A stretch of 32,197 nt of DNA from Alphaproteobacteria bacterium (GTDB lineage Bacteria > Pseudomonadota > Alphaproteobacteria > Geminicoccales > Geminicoccaceae). Both the position numbers and the translations under genes were made by a program. Numbering within the stretch: the first letter of the stretch is position 1; the number at the start of each line of letters is the position of its first letter. The notes beneath the pieces are model-generated. The model was not told the DNA's origin. It was given only the letters and a program-made list of their open reading frames with translations, and searched no databases. Where the stretch lies: assembly GCA_026982585.1 (NCBI GenBank), contig JALSGW010000038.1:1-32197 (forward strand). Reading direction: 5' to 3'. Shown here piece by piece: positions 19,727-27,996 of the stretch.

Positions 19727-20512
19727 TCAGCGGGGCTGATCCGGTGCGGCGATCACCACCTCCACCCCCGCCTCCCGCAGGCTGCGGGCGAAGGGCGCGG
19801 CGAGGGGACGGTCGGTGACAAGCAGATGGACCTCCTCGAGGGCGGCCACCCGCACCACCGCGCGGGCGCCGAACTTGCTGTGGTCGGCCACCAGCACGGT
19901 GCGCTGGGCGCGCTCCATCATCGCCCGGGCGATGCGCGCCTCGTCGAGGGCGAAGTTCATGAGGCCGTGCTCGGGATGGACGGCGGCGATCGAGAGAATG
20001 GCGAGATCGGCGCGGAACTGACCGACGAAGGAGAGCGCCTCCACCCCCACCGCCGCGGCGAGTTCGGCCTTGAGCTCGCCGCCGGCGAGATAGACCCGAT
20101 GGCCGTTGCGGCCCACGAGGGAGCGCGCGATCTCGATGCCGTTGGTGATCACGGTGAGCTCCCGGCGCCCGGCCAGCGCCTCGGCCACGTAGGCGGTGGT
20201 GGATCCGGTGTCCATCATCAGGGTCTGGCCGTCCTGCACCAGCTCGGCGAGGCGGGCGGCGATGGCGCGCTTGGCCTCCGCCCGCAGCCTGAGCCGCTGA
20301 TCGAAGGGCGGCTCCTCCGGCGGCCCGCTCCAGATGGCGAAGCCGTGCTCGCGCCGCACCATGCCCTGGGCCACCAGCTCCCGCAGGTGGCGGCGCACGG
20401 TCTCGTCGGAAATGCCGAGCCGGGCCGCCAGCGCCCGGATGCGGGCGCGCTTCTGTTCGCGCAGGGCATCGAGGATGGCCGCCTGCCAGCGGCTGCGCAC
20501 AACGGCTTCCAC
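19727..20512 (-). CDS. DeoR/GlpR-family transcriptional regulator
   Basis: A 261-residue regulator. The N-terminal DeoR-type helix-turn-helix reads [45 protein letters not shown]. The C-terminal sugar-phosphate-isomerase-like sensor domain contains [34 protein letters not shown] and ADHSKFG, the usual ligand-site motifs. Family members are mostly repressors that release DNA on binding a phosphorylated metabolite. It is divergent from the amine-transport operon at 20661, which it probably controls. The kinase in that operon could make the phosphorylated effector (inference). I prefer the GTG at 20512, which has GGGGAGG just upstream, over the ATG at 20554. Confidence 0.92.
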
Positions 20513-20523
20513 AGCACCTCCCC

Positions 20524-20570
20524 ATTTCGTGAGGGAATTAAACCTCAAAGCCACATGATTTGCACGAAAT
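20524..20570. promoter_or_regulatory. Inverted repeat, probable operator between regulator and operon
   Basis: ATTTCGTG at 20524-20531 and CACGAAAT at 20563-20570 form a perfect 8-bp inverted repeat with a 31-bp spacer, in the most AT-rich part of the divergent intergenic region. The TTTCGT core resembles the TTTCRT repeats bound by some DeoR-family regulators such as AgaR. The right half-site lies 3 bp upstream of a TTGACG -35 box, and the left is about 12 bp upstream of the regulator's start. One looped or paired site could therefore control both genes. Confidence 0.5.
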
Positions 20571-20573
20571 TTG

Positions 20574-20603
20574 TTGACGCACCCCTCGCCTGCGCCCCAC
20601 TAT
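20574..20603 (+). promoter_or_regulatory. Probable promoter of the amine transport/oxidation operon
   Basis: TTGACG at 20574-20579 matches the -35 consensus in five of six positions. CACTAT at 20598-20603, 18 bp downstream, is a weaker -10 match. It lies about 60 bp upstream of the binding-protein ATG and directly abuts the right half of the inverted repeat. Confidence 0.45.
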
Positions 20604-20660
20604 GGCGGTGCCCCGGGCACCGGCCCGGGAGGGAGATCGCAACACGGGGGGCTTACAACC

Positions 20661-21614
20661 ATGCGGCCAACACGGGGTTTCGTCGCTGTCACGGCGCTCG
20701 CCGCCCTGGCCCTGCTGCCGCCGCCGGCCGGGGCGCAGGTGGAATCCACCGATCCCATCCGCCTCACCCTCCACGACTGGACCGGCCAGCTCATCACCAC
20801 CCGCATCATGGGCGAGGTGCTCAAGGCGGCCGGCTACAACGTCGAGTATGTGCAGGCGGACTATCTGGCCCAGTTCGCCGGTCTCAAGTCCGGGGACCTG
20901 CATGTGGCCATGGAGATCTGGGAGACCACCGGGCGCCAGGCGATGGACGAGGCGGTCGCCACCGGGCTCGTGGAGAACCTCGGCGAGACCGGCATGGTGG
21001 CGATCGAGGAGTGGTGGTATCCGCTCTACATGAAGGAACAGTGTCCGGGCCTGCCGGACTGGCGGGCGCTCAACGACTGTGCCGAGCTGTTCGCGACCCC
21101 GGAGACCTATCCCAAGGGCCGCTATCTGGGCGGTCCGGTGACCTGGGGCGGCTATGACGAGGAGCGGGTCGAGGCGCTCGGCCTCGACTTCGAGGTGGTC
21201 CACGCCGGCACCGACGCCGCCCTGTTCGCCGAGCTCGAGAGCGCCTATCAGCGCCGGGCGCCGATCATTCTCTGGGTGTACACGCCGCACTGGGCGCCGA
21301 TCAAATACGAGGGCGAGTGGATCGAGTTCCCGCCCTACGAGCCCGCCTGCTACGAGGATCCGTCCTGGGGCGTCAATCCCGATCTCGCTTATGATTGCGG
21401 CAAGCCGCGCGGGCCGATCTGGAAGGTGGCCTGGGCCGGGCTCAAGGACAAATGGCCGGGCGCCTATCGGGCCATCAAGGCCTTTCGCGTCACCAACGAG
21501 GAGATGGGCGAGATGATCGCCCGCGTCGATCTCGAGGGGGAGAGCGTGGAGGCCGTGGTGGCCGATTGGATGGCCAAGAACGAGGACCGCTGGCGGGCCT
21601 GGATCGGCCAGTAG
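20661..21614 (+). CDS. proX: Glycine betaine/proline-type ABC transporter substrate-binding protein
   Basis: A 317-residue periplasmic binding protein of the OpuAC/ProX family. A signal peptide (VAVTALAALALLPPPAGAQ) is followed by IRLTLHDWTGQLITTRIMGEVLKAAGYNVEYV. Trp- and Tyr-rich stretches (MEIWETTG, EEWWYPLYMKEQ, ILWVYTPHW) are suited to an aromatic cage around a quaternary ammonium group. The ATG at 20661 is preceded by a GGGGGG tract 9 bp away. The upstream in-frame ORF part covers the promoter and is not coding. It leads an operon with its ATPase and permease. The exact ligand (glycine betaine, choline, dimethylglycine or a relative) cannot be read from sequence. Confidence 0.9.
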   Translation: MRPTRGFVAVTALAALALLPPPAGAQVESTDPIRLTLHDWTGQLITTRIMGEVLKAAGYNVEYVQADYLAQFAGLKSGDLHVAMEIWETTGRQAMDEAVATGLVENLGETGMVAIEEWWYPLYMKEQCPGLPDWRALNDCAELFATPETYPKGRYLGGPVTWGGYDEERVEALGLDFEVVHAGTDAALFAELESAYQRRAPIILWVYTPHWAPIKYEGEWIEFPPYEPACYEDPSWGVNPDLAYDCGKPRGPIWKVAWAGLKDKWPGAYRAIKAFRVTNEEMGEMIARVDLEGESVEAVVADWMAKNEDRWRAWIGQ

Positions 21615-21629
21615 GGACCGCGCGAGCCG

Positions 21630-22655
21630 ATGGCCAAGGGCGGCGAGGTCAAGCTCGCCTGTCGGCGGCTGTGGAAGGTCTTCGGCCCCGGCGCCGAGGC
21701 CTTCCTGGCCCGCCACGGCGCCGCGCCTTCGGCGGAGGAGCTGCGCGCCGCGGGGTTGGTGGTGGCGGTGGCGGATGCCGAACTCGCCGTGCGGGCCGGC
21801 GAGATCTTCGTCATCATGGGGCTCTCGGGATCCGGCAAGTCCACCCTGGTCCGCTGCCTCTCGCGCCTGGTGGAGCCGAGTTTCGGCGAGGTGTTCTTCG
21901 AGGGGCGGGATCTGTTGCGGATGCCGGAGCGGGAGATGATCGACATCCGCCGGCACAAGATGGGCATGGTGTTCCAGCACTTCGCCCTCCTCCCCCACCT
22001 CACCGTGCTCGACAACGTCGCCTTCCCCCTGGCGATCCAGGGGGTCGAGCGCCGGCGACGCGAGGAGCGGGCGCGCGAGATGATCGCGCTGGTCGGACTC
22101 GAGGGCAAGGAATACCACTTCCCGCGCGAGCTCTCGGGAGGCCAGCAGCAGCGCGTCGGCATCGCCCGCTCGCTGGCGGTGGGCCCGGAGCTGTGGTTCC
22201 TGGACGAGCCCTTCTCCGCCCTCGATCCCCTCATCCGCCGCGAGATGCAGAACGAGTTCCTGCGCCTGCAGGCGGTGCTCGAGAAGACCATCGTCTTCAT
22301 CACCCACGATTTCGACGAGGCCATCCGGCTCGCCGACCGGATCGCCATCATGCAGGACGGCCGCATCGTCCAGATCGGCACCCCCGAGGAGCTGGTGCTG
22401 CGGCCGGCCACACCCTATGTGGCGGAATTCACCCGCGAGGCGCCGCGCCACAAGATCCTCACCGCACGGGCGATCATGGCCCCGGTCAACGGCAGCGCCG
22501 AGTTCGCCGGCGAGATCCCGGCCGCCATGAAGGTGATCGAACTCGCGCCCATGGTGGTGGACAGCGACAAGCCCTTCCTGGTGGTGGAGAACGGCGAGCC
22601 GGTGGGCATGGTCGACCGGGCGGCGGTGATCGCGGTGTTGGTGGGGCGGAGGTAG
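21630..22655 (+). CDS. proV: Glycine betaine/proline-type ABC transporter ATP-binding protein
   Basis: The 341-residue ATPase powers import through the fused permease. Walker A is GLSGSGKST (64-72), the Q-loop is MVFQHFALLPH, the ABC signature is LSGGQQQR (168-175), Walker B is LWFLDEPFSALD (188-199), and the H-loop is ITHDFDEAIRLADR. It has the ProV-specific N-terminal extension before Walker A (about 45 residues), and a short C-terminal tail with one CBS-like half (FLVVENGEPVGMVDR) instead of ProV's full CBS pair. ProV-type CBS modules sense ionic strength, so osmotic gating may be weak or absent here (inference). It lies 15 bp after the binding protein and 3 bp before the permease. Confidence 0.93.
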   Translation: MAKGGEVKLACRRLWKVFGPGAEAFLARHGAAPSAEELRAAGLVVAVADAELAVRAGEIFVIMGLSGSGKSTLVRCLSRLVEPSFGEVFFEGRDLLRMPEREMIDIRRHKMGMVFQHFALLPHLTVLDNVAFPLAIQGVERRRREERAREMIALVGLEGKEYHFPRELSGGQQQRVGIARSLAVGPELWFLDEPFSALDPLIRREMQNEFLRLQAVLEKTIVFITHDFDEAIRLADRIAIMQDGRIVQIGTPEELVLRPATPYVAEFTREAPRHKILTARAIMAPVNGSAEFAGEIPAAMKVIELAPMVVDSDKPFLVVENGEPVGMVDRAAVIAVLVGRR

Positions 22656-22658
22656 CCC

Positions 22659-24668
22659 ATGGCTTCGGCGGCGCTGCCGCGGGCGCATGCGGTCGGCCGG
22701 TCCTATGCCGCACCGGCGGCGGTGGCGGCGGCGTTCGCCCTGTCCCTGGCCTTTCTCGCCCTGCCCCGCGGCACGGTGCCGGCCTGGTTGCTGCGGGTGC
22801 CGCGCGAGTGGGTGCCGCCTTTGCGGAGGTGGCTTTCCGCCTTCATGGACTGGCTGGTGGGCAGCGCCAGCTTCGGCTTGTTCACCTTCAAGGATCTCAC
22901 CCGCGCCTTCAGCGCGCTCATGGATTGGCCGCTGTGGCTGGCGAAGAGCCTGCTCGTCACGGGGTTCCAGCTCGGCGAGGGCTCTGCTGCGGTGGCGCTC
23001 ACGGCACCGGTCTCCTGGCTTGCGGTGATTCTCCTGCTCACCCTGTTCGCCTACCGCCTCGGCGGCCGCGGCCTCGCGATCCTGGTCTTCCTCTGTTTCG
23101 CCTATCTGGCGCTCTTCGGGCAGTGGGAGAGCGCCATGGTGACGTTGTCTTCGATCGTCATCGCGGTGCCCTTCGGGGTGGCGGGTGGTCTCGCGCTCGG
23201 CATCTGGGCCTACCGTTCGCCGCGGTTCGAGCGGGCGCTCACGCCGCTTTTGGACGTCATGCAGACCACCCCGGTGTTCGCCTATCTGGTGCCGATCCTG
23301 TTCCTGTTCGGCTTCGGCCCGGTGGCGGCGATGATCGCCACCATCATCTACGCCATGCCTCCCATGGTCCGGGTGACCATCCTGGCGCTCAAACAGGTGC
23401 CGGAGGAGATCAAGGAATTCGGCCGCATGGTGGGCTGCAGCCGGCGCCAGTTCATGTGGCGGGTGCTGGTGCCCACCGCCCGCCCGGCGCTCATGGTGGG
23501 GGTCAATCAGGTGATCATGTTGTCGCTCAACATGGTCATCATCGCCTCCATGATCGGCGCCGGCGGCCTCGGCTACGACGTGCTGGCGTCGCTGCGCAGA
23601 CTCGACATCGGGGCCGGCCTCGAGGCCGGACTGGCCATCACCCTGCTCGCGATCGCCCTCGACCGCATGAGCCAGGCCGCGGCCGGCCGCAGCGAACGCC
23701 GGCGCGGGCGGCAGGGCGGGGCGTCGGGATTCGACGGGGTGATGGCGGCGGCCTTGCTGTTCGCCCTCGCCACCCTGTGGCTGGGGCTGCGCTATCCCTG
23801 GCTCGCCCGCTATCCCGAGGCCCTCGAGATCTCCACCGCCCCCTTCTGGGATGCGCTGGTGCGCTGGATCAACGTCAACTTCTTCGACCAGCTCGAGGCC
23901 TTCAAGACCACGCTCCTCGTCTACGTGCTGGTGCCGGTGAAACGCTTCCTCCTCGCCCAGCCCTGGCCATGGGTGCTGCTGCTGCTCACCCTCGCGGCCC
24001 TGCGCCTGGGCGGTGTGCGGCTTGCGCTCGTGGTGCTCGGGTTCGGGCTGTTCGTGGCCTTCTCCGGCTTCTGGACCAAGGCCATGATCACCGTCTATCT
24101 GTGTGGGCTCGCGGTGATCATCGCCGCCCTGCTCGGCATTCCGCTCGGCATCGCCTGCGGTCTCAACGCGCGGCTGTGGCGGGTGGTGGAGGCGGTGATC
24201 GATACGCTGCAGACCCTGCCCTCCTTCGTCTATCTGATCCCGGTGGTGATGCTGTTCCGGGTCGGCGACTTCTCGGCCATGATCGCGGTGATCCTCTATG
24301 CCATCGCCCCCGCGATCCGCTATGCGGCCCACGGCGTCCGCCGGGTGCCGGCCCATCTCATCGAGGCCGGCCGGGCTTCCGGTTGCACCCCGCGCCAGAT
24401 CCTGCTGCGCATCCGCCTGCCGCTCGCGCTGCCGGAGATCCTGCTCGGCATCAACCAGACCATCATGCTGGCCCTGTCCATGCTGGTGATCACCGCTCTC
24501 GTGGGGACCCGGGATCTCGGCCAGGAGGTCTACATCGCCCTGACCAAGGCCGATGTGGGCTATGGGCTGGTGGCGGGATTGAGCGTGGCCGCCATCGCCA
24601 TGATCGCCGACCGCCTGATCGGTGCGTGGGCGGAGCGGCTGCGGCGACGCTTCGGTCTGCAGGCATGA
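22659..24668 (+). CDS. Fused double-permease subunit of the betaine-type ABC transporter
   Basis: A 669-residue membrane protein made of two ProW-like permease domains in one chain, so a single copy could supply both halves of the channel. Domain 1 (to about residue 345) contains TTPVFAYLVPILFLFGFGP and an EAA-type loop EEIKEFGRMVGCSRRQFMWRVLVP. Domain 2 (from about residue 360) contains LQTLPSFVYLIPVVMLFRVG and the EAA-type loop HLIEAGRASGCTPRQILLRIRLP. Each domain has its own NQ-IMLSLNM/NQTIMLALSM and GLG/DLG segments. Single-domain ProW/OpuAB proteins are about 280-350 residues. The stop overlaps the kinase ATG (ATGA). Confidence 0.92.
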   Translation: MASAALPRAHAVGRSYAAPAAVAAAFALSLAFLALPRGTVPAWLLRVPREWVPPLRRWLSAFMDWLVGSASFGLFTFKDLTRAFSALMDWPLWLAKSLLVTGFQLGEGSAAVALTAPVSWLAVILLLTLFAYRLGGRGLAILVFLCFAYLALFGQWESAMVTLSSIVIAVPFGVAGGLALGIWAYRSPRFERALTPLLDVMQTTPVFAYLVPILFLFGFGPVAAMIATIIYAMPPMVRVTILALKQVPEEIKEFGRMVGCSRRQFMWRVLVPTARPALMVGVNQVIMLSLNMVIIASMIGAGGLGYDVLASLRRLDIGAGLEAGLAITLLAIALDRMSQAAAGRSERRRGRQGGASGFDGVMAAALLFALATLWLGLRYPWLARYPEALEISTAPFWDALVRWINVNFFDQLEAFKTTLLVYVLVPVKRFLLAQPWPWVLLLLTLAALRLGGVRLALVVLGFGLFVAFSGFWTKAMITVYLCGLAVIIAALLGIPLGIACGLNARLWRVVEAVIDTLQTLPSFVYLIPVVMLFRVGDFSAMIAVILYAIAPAIRYAAHGVRRVPAHLIEAGRASGCTPRQILLRIRLPLALPEILLGINQTIMLALSMLVITALVGTRDLGQEVYIALTKADVGYGLVAGLSVAAIAMIADRLIGAWAERLRRRFGLQA

Positions 24669-25558
24669 GGGAACAGGCCATGGAGGAGGTGCAGGACCGC
24701 ATCCGGTCGCTGCCCCTGTGGCGGGGTCGGATCGAGATGGAGCCGGTGGGCGGCGGTATCACCAACACCAACCTGTTGGTCCGCGATTCCGGCCATCGTT
24801 ACTTCGTGCGGGTGGGCGCCGACATCCCGGTGCACGGGGTGATGCGCTTCAACGAAAAGGCGGCCGCGCTCGCCGCCCACGCAGCCGGCGTCGGCCCGGC
24901 GGTGGTCTACAGCGAACCCGGCATCCTGGTGTTCGACCACATCGCGGGCGAGACCCTCACGGCAGAGGGCGTGCGCCGGCAGCTCGATCGGGTGCTGGCG
25001 CTGGTCAAGCGCGCCCATCGCGAGATCCCGAAGCACCTGCGCGGGCCGGTGCTGGCCTTCTGGGTGTTCCATGTGGTGCGGGACTACGCCCACACCCTCA
25101 AAGAGGCGGATTTCCGGCTCAAGGCGGAGCTTCCGCGCTATCTGGAGGCGGCGGAGCGGCTCGAGCGGGCGGTGGGGCCGGTGGAGCTGGTCTTCGGCCA
25201 CAACGATCTTCTGGCCGCCAACTTCATCGACGACGGCGCGCGGCTGTGGCTCGTGGACTGGGAGTATGCCGGCTTCAACTCGCCGCTGTTCGATCTCGGC
25301 GGGCTCGCTTCCAACAACGAGCTCTCGGAGGACGAGCGGCTGTGGCTGCTTGAGGCCTATTTCGAGCGACCGGTGGACGATTCGCTGCGCCTTTCCGCCC
25401 AGGCCATGCTCACCGCCTCGCTCTTGCGGGAGGCCATGTGGAGCATGGTGTCGGAGATCCATTCCAAGCTGGAGTTCGACTATCGCGCCTACACCGAGAC
25501 CAACCTCGAGCGCTTCGAGCGGGCGCTCGCCCGTTTCGAGGAGATGACGCGATCATGA
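24665..25558 (+). CDS. Choline kinase/LicA-like aminoglycoside phosphotransferase-fold protein
   Basis: A 297-residue small-molecule kinase of the APH/choline kinase superfamily. The nucleotide-binding GGGITNTN (29-36) resembles the GG-TN-N loop of choline kinases. The Brenner motif HNDLLAAN (179-186) holds the catalytic Asp, and VDWEYAGFNSPLFDLG (from 197) holds the metal-binding Asp. The last motif is closer to choline kinase/LicA than to antibiotic kinases. A role in phosphorylating choline or a related amino alcohol is the likely reading, but the substrate is unproven. It overlaps the permease and the dehydrogenase by 4 bp each. A second ATG at 24680 has a better-placed AGGGA and is an alternative start. 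Confidence 0.85.
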   Translation: MREQAMEEVQDRIRSLPLWRGRIEMEPVGGGITNTNLLVRDSGHRYFVRVGADIPVHGVMRFNEKAAALAAHAAGVGPAVVYSEPGILVFDHIAGETLTAEGVRRQLDRVLALVKRAHREIPKHLRGPVLAFWVFHVVRDYAHTLKEADFRLKAELPRYLEAAERLERAVGPVELVFGHNDLLAANFIDDGARLWLVDWEYAGFNSPLFDLGGLASNNELSEDERLWLLEAYFERPVDDSLRLSAQAMLTASLLREAMWSMVSEIHSKLEFDYRAYTETNLERFERALARFEEMTRS

Positions 25559-27996
25559 CCGCGCTTCCCCGCTCGGCCGAGGTGATCGTCGTCGGCGGCG
25601 GCATCGTCGGCTGTTCGGTCGCCTATCATCTCGCCCATCTCGGCCGCGAGGTGCTGTTGCTCGAGCGCCACCGGCTCACCTCCGGCTCCACCTGGCACGC
25701 CGCCGGGCTGGTGGGCCAGCTGCGCACCAACGCCAACATCACCCAGCTGCTCACCTATTCGGTGGAGCTCTACGCCCGGCTCGAGGCGGAAACCGGCCAG
25801 GCCACCGGCTGGAAGCAGAACGGCGGCCTGCGGCTCGCCTGCAACCCGGACCGGTGGATCGAGCTGCGCCGCCAGGCCACCACCGCCCGCTCCTTCGGCC
25901 TCGAGATGCACCTGCTCTCGCCCAGAGAGGCGCGCGAGCTGTGGCCGCTCATGGAGGTGGAGGATGTGGTGGGCGCCGCCTTCCTGCCCACCGACGGCCA
26001 GGCCAATCCCGCCGACATCACCCAGGCGCTGGCCAAGGGCGCGCGCCAGAAGGGCGCCTTGATCCTCGAGGAGATCGGGGTCGAGGAGCTGTGGGTGGAG
26101 GACGGCCGTCTGCGCGGCGTGCGCACCGCCCAGGGCACCGTCGCCTGCGCCCAATTGTGCCTGTGCTGCGGCCAGTGGACCCGACAGCTGGCCGCCCGGG
26201 CCGGGGTGTCGGTGCCGCTCGCCTCGGTGCAGCACCAGTATCTGGTCACCGAGCCCGTCCCCGGAGTGCGCCCCGATCTCCCCACCCTGCGCGATCCCGA
26301 TCGCCTCCTCTACTACAAGGAGGAGGTGGGGGGCCTTGTGGTGGGCGGCTACGAGCCCAATCCCCGCCCGTGGGGCGAGGACGGGGTGCCGGAGGATTTC
26401 GCCTTCGCGTTGCTCGACGAGGATCTCGACCATTTCGAGCCGCTCATGCGCCACGCTCTCGCCCGGGTGCCGGCGCTGGCGGAGGTCGGAATCCGGCGCA
26501 TCGTCAACGGGCCCGAGAGCTTCACCCCGGACGGCCAGTTCATCCTCGGCGAGGCGCCCGGGCTTGCGGGACTGTTCATCGCCGCCGGGTTCAACGCCTT
26601 CGGCATCGCCGCCGCCGGCGGCGCCGGCATGGCCTTGGCCGAGTGGGTCTGCAAGGGCGCGCCGCCCTATGATCTGTGGCCGGTGGACATCCGCCGCTTC
26701 GGCCGCGAGTACGCCGACCCCCGCCGCCTGTATGCCCGCACCCTCGAGGCCTACGCCAAGCACTATGCCATCGCCTGGCCCGGGGAAGAGATGGAGAGCG
26801 GCCGCCCGCTGCGGCGCTCGCCCCTCTACGATCGGCTCAAGGCACGGGGGGCGGTGTTCGGCGAGAAACTGGGGTTCGAACGCCCCAACTGGTTCGCCGC
26901 GGACGGCGAGGAGGCGGTCGAGCGCTACAGTTTCACCCGCCCCAACTGGTTCGCGGCGGTGGGGCGCGAACACCGGGCCTGCCGCGAGCGGGTGGCGCTG
27001 TTCGACCAGAGCTCCTTCGCCAAGTTCCTGCTGGTGGGCCCGGATGCGGAGGAGGTGCTGTCCTGGATCTGCGCCGGCGAGGTGCGCAAGCCGCCGGGAC
27101 GGCTCACCTACACCCAGATGCTCAATGCCCAAGGCGGCATCGAATGCGATCTCACCGTCGCCCGCATCGCCCCCGATCTCTACTACATCGTCACCGGTAC
27201 CGGCTTCGCCACCCGCGACTTCGACTGGATCCGCCGCCACATCCCGCCGGGCCGCCACGCCCAGCTCATCGACGTCACTTCGGCGCGGGCGGTGCTTTCG
27301 GTGATGGGGCCGCGCGCCCGCGAACTCCTCCAGCCCCTCACCCCTTATCCCCTCGACAACGACGCCTTTCCCTTCGCACACGTGCGCGAGCTGATCCTGG
27401 CCGGCGTGCCGGTCTGGGCGCTTCGGGTCACCTATGTGGGCGAGCTCGGCTGGGAGCTGCACGTGCCGGCGGAATGCGCGCTCACCCTGTTCGACGCACT
27501 GGTCGAGCGCGGCGAAGCGCTCGGGCTGGCGCTGGCCGGCTATCGCGCCATCGAATCGCTGCGGCTGGAGAAGGGCTATCGGGCCTGGGGCGCGGACATC
27601 GGGCCCGACTACAACCCGCTCATGGCCGGCCTCGGCTTTGCGGTCAAGCTCCGCTCCAACCAACCCTTCCTCGGCCGCGAGGCGCTCGAGGACCAGCGCA
27701 GGCGACCGCTCACCCGCCGGCTGGTCGGCTTTCTGGTGCCGGATCCCGAAGTGCCGCTGTGGGGCCGCGAGACCATCTATCGCGACGGCAAGCGGGTCGG
27801 CTGGCTCACCTCCGCCGGCTTCGGCTACACCGTGGGCCGGCCGATCGGCTACGGTTACGTGCGCAACGACGAGGGGGTGAGCCGCGAGTGGATTTTCGCC
27901 GGCCGCTACGAACTCGAGGTGGCGGGCGAACGGGTGCCGGCCGAACCCTTCCTCAAGCCCCCCTATGATCCCGAAGGGACCCGGGTGCGCGGCTGA
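25555..27996 (+). CDS. GcvT-fused FAD dehydrogenase (dimethylglycine/sarcosine dehydrogenase-like)
   Basis: An 813-residue flavoprotein, the usual size for this family. The N-terminal DAO-type FAD domain has VIVVGGGIVGCSVAYHLA (dinucleotide fold). TSGSTWHAAGL has His48 at the position that binds FAD covalently in mitochondrial dimethylglycine dehydrogenase. A middle FAO-type linker contains FERPNWFA twice in close variants. The C-terminal GcvT-like half (AQGGIECDLTVARIAPDLYYIVTG, VTYVGELGWELHVP, RLEKGYRAWGADIGPDYNP) transfers the oxidised methyl group to tetrahydrofolate in characterised relatives. The likely reaction is oxidative N-demethylation of a methylated glycine or related amine. It ends the operon. 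Confidence 0.9.
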   Translation: MTALPRSAEVIVVGGGIVGCSVAYHLAHLGREVLLLERHRLTSGSTWHAAGLVGQLRTNANITQLLTYSVELYARLEAETGQATGWKQNGGLRLACNPDRWIELRRQATTARSFGLEMHLLSPREARELWPLMEVEDVVGAAFLPTDGQANPADITQALAKGARQKGALILEEIGVEELWVEDGRLRGVRTAQGTVACAQLCLCCGQWTRQLAARAGVSVPLASVQHQYLVTEPVPGVRPDLPTLRDPDRLLYYKEEVGGLVVGGYEPNPRPWGEDGVPEDFAFALLDEDLDHFEPLMRHALARVPALAEVGIRRIVNGPESFTPDGQFILGEAPGLAGLFIAAGFNAFGIAAAGGAGMALAEWVCKGAPPYDLWPVDIRRFGREYADPRRLYARTLEAYAKHYAIAWPGEEMESGRPLRRSPLYDRLKARGAVFGEKLGFERPNWFAADGEEAVERYSFTRPNWFAAVGREHRACRERVALFDQSSFAKFLLVGPDAEEVLSWICAGEVRKPPGRLTYTQMLNAQGGIECDLTVARIAPDLYYIVTGTGFATRDFDWIRRHIPPGRHAQLIDVTSARAVLSVMGPRARELLQPLTPYPLDNDAFPFAHVRELILAGVPVWALRVTYVGELGWELHVPAECALTLFDALVERGEALGLALAGYRAIESLRLEKGYRAWGADIGPDYNPLMAGLGFAVKLRSNQPFLGREALEDQRRRPLTRRLVGFLVPDPEVPLWGRETIYRDGKRVGWLTSAGFGYTVGRPIGYGYVRNDEGVSREWIFAGRYELEVAGERVPAEPFLKPPYDPEGTRVRG

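Follow-up and report, generated by a model that had tools for sequence, protein, structure and literature searches.

It was shown experimentally that choline is phosphorylated by MthK before it is demethylated in Eubacterium limosum (PMC12155760). In this anaerobic MthK-MthB-MthC-MthA system the phosphorylation of the amino alcohol by a choline-kinase-like enzyme precedes the methyl transfer to tetrahydrofolate, with a corrinoid methyltransferase of the MttB superfamily acting on the quaternary amine, and it was proposed there that the phosphate replaces a carboxylate as the binding determinant (PMC12155760). For the transport of methylated amines, the closest described system is TmoXWV of Ruegeria pomeroyi, where the roles of the pocket residues of the binding protein TmoX have been assigned and where the TmoX family was found to bind choline with micromolar affinity (PMC8918994); the regulators of the TMA/TMAO pathway in Ruegeria are of the AraC and GntR types, not of the DeoR type (PMC13390433). 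For the oxidation, the closest enzymes are dimethylglycine dehydrogenase (DMGDH) of human and rat and dimethylglycine oxidase of Arthrobacter. For ethanolamine, a gamma-glutamylation pathway was described in Phaeobacter and Chromohalobacter (PMC10132767), which begins with free ethanolamine taken up via the EtoX TRAP transporter and includes neither a kinase nor a demethylase. In the literature searched, which covered few subscription papers, no gene set was described with which bacteria use dimethyl- or methylethanolamine aerobically, and neither a kinase-first demethylation by a flavin/GcvT enzyme, nor its association with a phosphatase and with the degradation of ethanolamine, nor its control by DeoR was found.

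Here we consider a locus in a window, by which we mean the whole stretch of 32,197 nucleotides that was analysed. The locus consists of a DeoR regulator gene that is divergent from a tightly packed operon of five genes, with the reading frames of all six genes being open at the coordinates in Table 1. The coordinates and the Pfam domains agree with the original prediction of a divergent regulator beside a packed operon of transporter, kinase and dehydrogenase. The 4-bp overlaps that it described in the last three genes are present at two junctions, that of the permease with the kinase (KIN1) and that of KIN1 with the dehydrogenase (DMG1), while the ATPase and the permease are separated by a 3-bp gap. 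Since the flanking genes, which are YebC, RuvB, TolQ-type, OmpA-type, PP-loop ATPase and FtsH genes upstream and TerC and SecDF-type genes downstream, are unrelated to the operon, the operon forms a self-contained island.

Table 1. Features of the locus, with positions in the window.
Feature	Position	Strand	Evidence
DeoR/GlpR-family regulator	19727-20554	-	Pfam DeoRC 1.3e-51 and HTH_DeoR; divergent from operon
Candidate regulatory region	20524-20579	.	inverted repeat and -35-like hexamer; weak evidence
TmoX-like periplasmic binding protein	about 20661-21614	+	Pfam OpuAC 3.8e-50; PDB 4xz6 2.1e-81
ABC transporter ATPase, ProV/choline family	21630-22655	+	TIGR01186 333 bits, above cut-off; Pfam ABC_tran
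Fused double permease	22659-24668	+	two BPD_transp_1 in 669 aa (Pfam); TIGR03416 above cut-off
KIN1, choline/ethanolamine-kinase-like phosphotransferase	24665-25558	+	Pfam Choline_kinase/APH; PDB 3dxq 2.8e-24, LicA 1.6e-15
DMG1, FAD/GcvT two-domain dehydrogenase	25555-27996	+	DAO, FAO_M, GCV_T, GCV_T_C; PDB 5l46 3.3e-161

On the basis of what was observed, namely the genes present, their synteny, the conserved residues and the downstream genes found elsewhere in this genome, we propose a model, in which the identity of the substrate, the order of the steps and the ligand of DeoR are what we infer. In the model, which we give a probability of about 0.6, the operon would be the front end of the catabolism of N-methylated ethanolamines, with N,N-dimethylethanolamine and/or N-methylethanolamine as the most likely ones. 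The N-methylated ethanolamine would be imported by the TmoX-like ABC system, KIN1 would phosphorylate its hydroxyl and DMG1 would remove the methyl groups from the phosphate ester, with the electrons going to ETF, the one-carbon units going to tetrahydrofolate and the phosphate standing in for the carboxylate of dimethylglycine. A HisN-like phosphatase of the inositol-monophosphatase family (IMPase), which is often encoded beside DeoR and is here encoded elsewhere in the genome, would then free the ethanolamine, which would be converted to glycine and enter central metabolism by the gamma-glutamyl-ethanolamide route (by EutBC in others). DeoR would repress the operon until it is bound to a phosphorylated intermediate. 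This sequential reading, in which phosphorylation, demethylation and dephosphorylation would follow one another, takes the place of the earlier proposal that the compound is either phosphorylated or demethylated. It is noted that compared with the MthK system the window operon has a dehydrogenase of the flavin/GcvT type, which is fit for tertiary or secondary amines, and that the phosphatase and ethanolamine degradation would lie downstream.

At slightly better than even odds, the locus would also represent a widespread aerobic "phosphate handle" pathway composed of a kinase, an oxidative folate-linked demethylase, a phosphatase and ethanolamine degradation, where a flavoenzyme of the DMGDH family acts on phosphorylated methylethanolamines. 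If this is true, a function would be assigned to the kinase-dehydrogenase pair, candidate substrates would be available for genes whose present labels go no further than "phosphotransferase" and "FAD-dependent oxidoreductase", and the use of phosphorylation as a temporary handle in demethylation would gain a second example, this one aerobic. It would also tie the breakdown of methylated lipid head groups to the supply of one-carbon units and nitrogen, including in streamlined genomes of 1.4 Mb.

With KIN1 as the query, a scan of sampled public genomes gave 532 relatives of the kinase and 80 loci. In a class-wide search, KIN1-type matches of at least 270 bits, set apart from other kinases by a score gap, are present in 42 of 385 alphaproteobacterial genomes. 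The scan, the class-wide search and plasmid loci together give 125 distinct loci with KIN1, one of them being that of the window. A DMG gene adjoins KIN1 in 103 of them and is absent near KIN1 in 17, a binding protein lies upstream in 58 and a divergent DeoR in 53. The co-occurrence of choline-kinase and demethylase chemistries, which had been taken to be rare, is thus common at these loci and has its precedent in E. limosum (PMC12155760). At 34 of the 125 loci (window included), which span Alpha-, Gamma- and delta-type proteobacteria, all six genes recur with their order and orientation unchanged, so that the gene order is kept far beyond close relatives and chance falls far short of explaining the arrangement. 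The carriers of KIN1 include Ancylobacter, Methylopila, Hansschlegelia, Kiloniella, Rhizobium, relatives of Roseobacter, and gammaproteobacterial and delta-type metagenome-assembled genomes. Loci of the Dongia group have further conserved neighbours (peptidases, an aminotransferase and an arginase), which were set aside as they look like generic flanking genes. Several gammaproteobacterial loci (L005, L008, L014, L015) and one locus of a streamlined alphaproteobacterium (L096) have the binding protein and the permease with no recognisable ATPase between them.

KIN1 forms one clade (SH-aLRT 100, in a tree made by a quick method with LicA as a long branch), separate from KIN2, its paralog, and from LicA and 3dxq. 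As for its grouping, the nearest relatives belong to the choline/ethanolamine-kinase family, and no homoserine- or antibiotic-kinase profile is among its NCBIfam matches. With the residue roles known for LicA (PMC4364537), the catalytic T29 is T in 83 of 85 KIN1 sequences and S in the other two, while D176, N181 and D194 are present in all 85. In the choline pocket, Y197, W254 and Y268 are kept, but E213 is replaced by N and W251 by E in 85/85, where the assignment of W251 hinges on the alignment of a short stretch. By contrast, KIN2 retains the full pocket (Y197, E213, W251, W254, Y268) in 15/15. Because E213 and W251 are lost in KIN1 and the pocket is intact in KIN2, the comparison suggests that KIN1 prefers a substrate other than choline; with its pocket altered, we regard KIN1 as akin to the choline kinases and do not file it as one. 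The acidic residue in the pocket of KIN1 may lie near the protonated amine.

The binding protein matches 4xz6, the TMAO binding protein TmoX, over its whole length. Its OpuAC domain is as originally predicted, but the betaine-type label does not hold, the nearest PDB entry being TmoX and not a glycine-betaine binder. Among seven pocket positions of TmoX, W55, W102, E131 and W177 are retained in 45 homologs of the window protein and three are changed uniformly, F106 to G/A, F220 to W and W222 to Y. The predicted aromatic cage of the window protein is formed by W40, W87, W162, W205 and Y207, plus E116, and these pocket residues are uniform or nearly so in the 45 homologs. Judged from the alignment, the predicted methylated-ammonium (quaternary-amine) cage and the oxygen-binding Glu are retained, with the cage reshaped, and the cage would suit choline too. 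Other differences from TmoXWV are that the permease is a fused double one and that the transporter is linked to KIN1-DMG1, not to tmm/tdm.

A rival reading is that choline itself is imported, with KIN1 giving phosphocholine, which would be demethylated fully to phosphoethanolamine by DMG1 and a further enzyme that takes off the first methyl group. This would be in line with the micromolar affinity of the TmoX family for choline (PMC8918994), with the conserved cage, and with phosphocholine being the true substrate of demethylation in E. limosum (PMC12155760). One locus, L094 (G261:C1:188762-191343), has the gene of a corrinoid methyltransferase of the MttB family at 0.2 kb from KIN1 and two DMGDH-like genes beside KIN1, hinting at phosphocholine chemistry; apart from this locus no MttB gene was noticed beside KIN1-DMG1. 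MttB is present in 30 of the 42 KIN1 genomes, a number that carries little weight, the count being made in KIN1 genomes alone. To our knowledge, a quaternary nitrogen is not oxidisable by a flavin amine dehydrogenase, and the two choline-pocket residues are missing from KIN1 and kept in KIN2, so that we consider choline an unlikely substrate.

The reading with N-methylated ethanolamines draws on the neighbours of KIN1-DMG1, where three separate ethanolamine systems are found in different lineages. First, the gene of the ethanolamine permease EutH lies directly behind DMG1 (L086, L091), the order in Nitratireductor and in genome G159 being a divergent DeoR, then KIN1, DMG1 and EutH; the copy behind KIN1-DMG1 in G159 is the only EutH above the cut-off in the 385 alphaproteobacterial genomes. 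EutH can thus stand in for the betaine-type transporter at loci that lack it. Second, EutBC is divergent from KIN1-DMG1 (L017, L059). Third, gamma-glutamyl-ethanolamide genes lie beside KIN1-DMG1 (L042, L048, L079, L146), L042 also having a neighbour like an ethanolamine permease, just under the cut-off (TIGR00908, 359.5 versus 381.75); in Kiloniella the orthologous Fe-ADH alone is behind DMG1. Of the two substrate classes originally suggested, an N-methylated amino alcohol is the better one, and an amino acid is weakened by this repeated linkage.

If the kinase acts first, the phosphate has to be removed ahead of the ethanolamine enzymes. Ten loci (L025, L048, L053, L057, L062, L083, L111, L114, L145, L146) have an IMPase gene that adjoins DeoR, KIN1 or DMG1, with histidinol-phosphatase as the nearest NCBIfam profile (246.6 versus a cut-off of 275), while the breadth of this phosphatase family counts against our explanation. 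An ethanolamine-phosphate phospho-lyase (class III aminotransferase) was considered as the next step and rejected, because IMPase and the enzymes for free ethanolamine explain the context better; no such gene was noticed among the conserved neighbours. Streamlined alphaproteobacterial genomes of 1.4 Mb carry KIN1-DMG1-ETF, the ETF subunit genes lying behind DMG1 in L095-L097; two of these genomes (L134, L135) hold the ethanolamine glutamylation genes and IMPase elsewhere, IMPase there abutting the ethanolamine genes instead.

We consider the cluster on plasmid pPABY1 of Salipiger abyssi (L146), which holds the whole proposed pathway, as the strongest single piece of evidence. Its order is IMPase and DeoR on the minus strand, followed by the binding protein, ATPase, permease, KIN1, DMG1, ETF beta, ETF alpha, FolD, PurU, amidohydrolase, glutamine-synthetase-family ligase, ALDH, Fe-ADH, GlyA and serine ammonia-lyase. 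Based on their families, these genes would account for the import, the phosphorylation, the demethylation with electrons going to ETF and one-carbon units to folate, and the dephosphorylation, and further for the conversion of ethanolamine to glycine and then of glycine and one-carbon units to serine and pyruvate. All four enzymes of the known gamma-glutamylation pathway are in this cluster.

Homologs of these four enzymes are encoded in the window genome (2.47 Mb in 435 contigs), namely of the ligase (contig C140, 709 bits), Fe-ADH (C112, 55%), ALDH (C69, 56%) and the amidohydrolase (C75, 44%), as is a homolog of IMPase (C370, 41%), while neither EutB nor EutH was found there. The pathway could thus be completed in the window organism with genes unlinked to the operon, and as these genes are on other contigs their linkage to it is by analogy. 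Genome-wide co-occurrence was rejected as proof: the glutamyl-ligase (ETAGA-like) is present in 8 of 42 KIN1 genomes versus 36 of 343 others, a trend that is not significant (one-sided p = 0.09), and EutB shows no enrichment (2 of 42 versus 25 of 343). With co-occurrence so weak, some carriers must finish the pathway in another way or draw on the methyl groups alone.

DMG1 has DAO, FAO_M, GCV_T and GCV_T_C in one chain and matches human DMGDH over its full length, sharing the STWHAAGL motif and the VQHQY stretch, and ETF genes sometimes adjoin it. The full-length similarity is what speaks for two independent branches, in which the substrate of DMG1 would be an N-methyl amino acid brought in from outside (dimethylglycine, sarcosine), and KIN1 would have its role in signalling or in the salvage of lipid head groups; a member of this kinase family could supply the synthesis of phosphocholine or phosphoethanolamine. 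We give such branches somewhat less credence than choline, as the KIN1-DMG linkage persists through the exchange of the transporter, the KIN1 clusters share ethanolamine degradation genes and not betaine genes, the sarcosine oxidase operon of Salipiger is a unit separate from the KIN1 cluster, and DMG1 differs from human DMGDH by changes specific to its clade (e.g. E321-S322-F323-T324 and, at N347, an insertion). Unlike DMGDH, DMG1 is tied genetically to kinase, phosphatase and ethanolamine genes, and this context points to a predicted substrate other than dimethylglycine. That TMAO or another N-oxide is imported and degraded, its oxygen being activated by the kinase ahead of demethylation, is very improbable, for although TmoX is the nearest solved binding protein and the top NCBIfam profile of KIN1 is GntI, whose substrate is an N-hydroxyl compound, three TmoX pocket residues are uniformly replaced, the GntI score is far below the cut-off and common to KIN2 (NF041256, 141.2 bits versus 357 for KIN1, by which KIN1 as a GntI pre-guanitoxin kinase was rejected), DMG1 was likewise rejected as the TMAO demethylase Tdm (NF053776, 160 bits versus 1100, in the C-terminal part only), and EutH, EutBC and the gamma-glutamyl-ethanolamide genes would be left unexplained.

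The regulator has both the HTH_DeoR and the DeoRC sensor domain, and where the transporter is exchanged DeoR remains with KIN1-DMG1. For the N-methylated ethanolamine pathway, it is plausible from the family and the linked kinase that the ligand of DeoR would be a phosphorylated intermediate. An 8-bp perfect inverted repeat, ATTTCGTG (20524-20531) and CACGAAAT (20563-20570), in the DeoR-operon intergenic region is a possible site of the regulator. The -35-like hexamer TTGACG at 20574-20579, inside a TGTTGAC stretch that is invariant in five relatives, was not reported by the consensus promoter scan.

Finally, we note that a pair of DMG2 (about 48% to DMG1) and KIN2 often follows KIN1-DMG1 in tandem (L147:15330-18673, L121:8802-12085, L067:11942-15278, L010, L016, L019, L035, L039, L040, L112). 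KIN2 also occurs with no KIN1 and beside its own DeoR (L156:8558-12837, L155:11070-15195). In Alisedimentitalea a divergent DeoR faces a DMGDH-like gene and a KIN2-type kinase, and in Mesorhizobium DeoR is found with a KIN2-type kinase and two FAD oxidoreductases; since KIN2 there has its own DeoR and flavoenzymes, the combination of kinase, flavoenzyme and DeoR may be a recurring theme.
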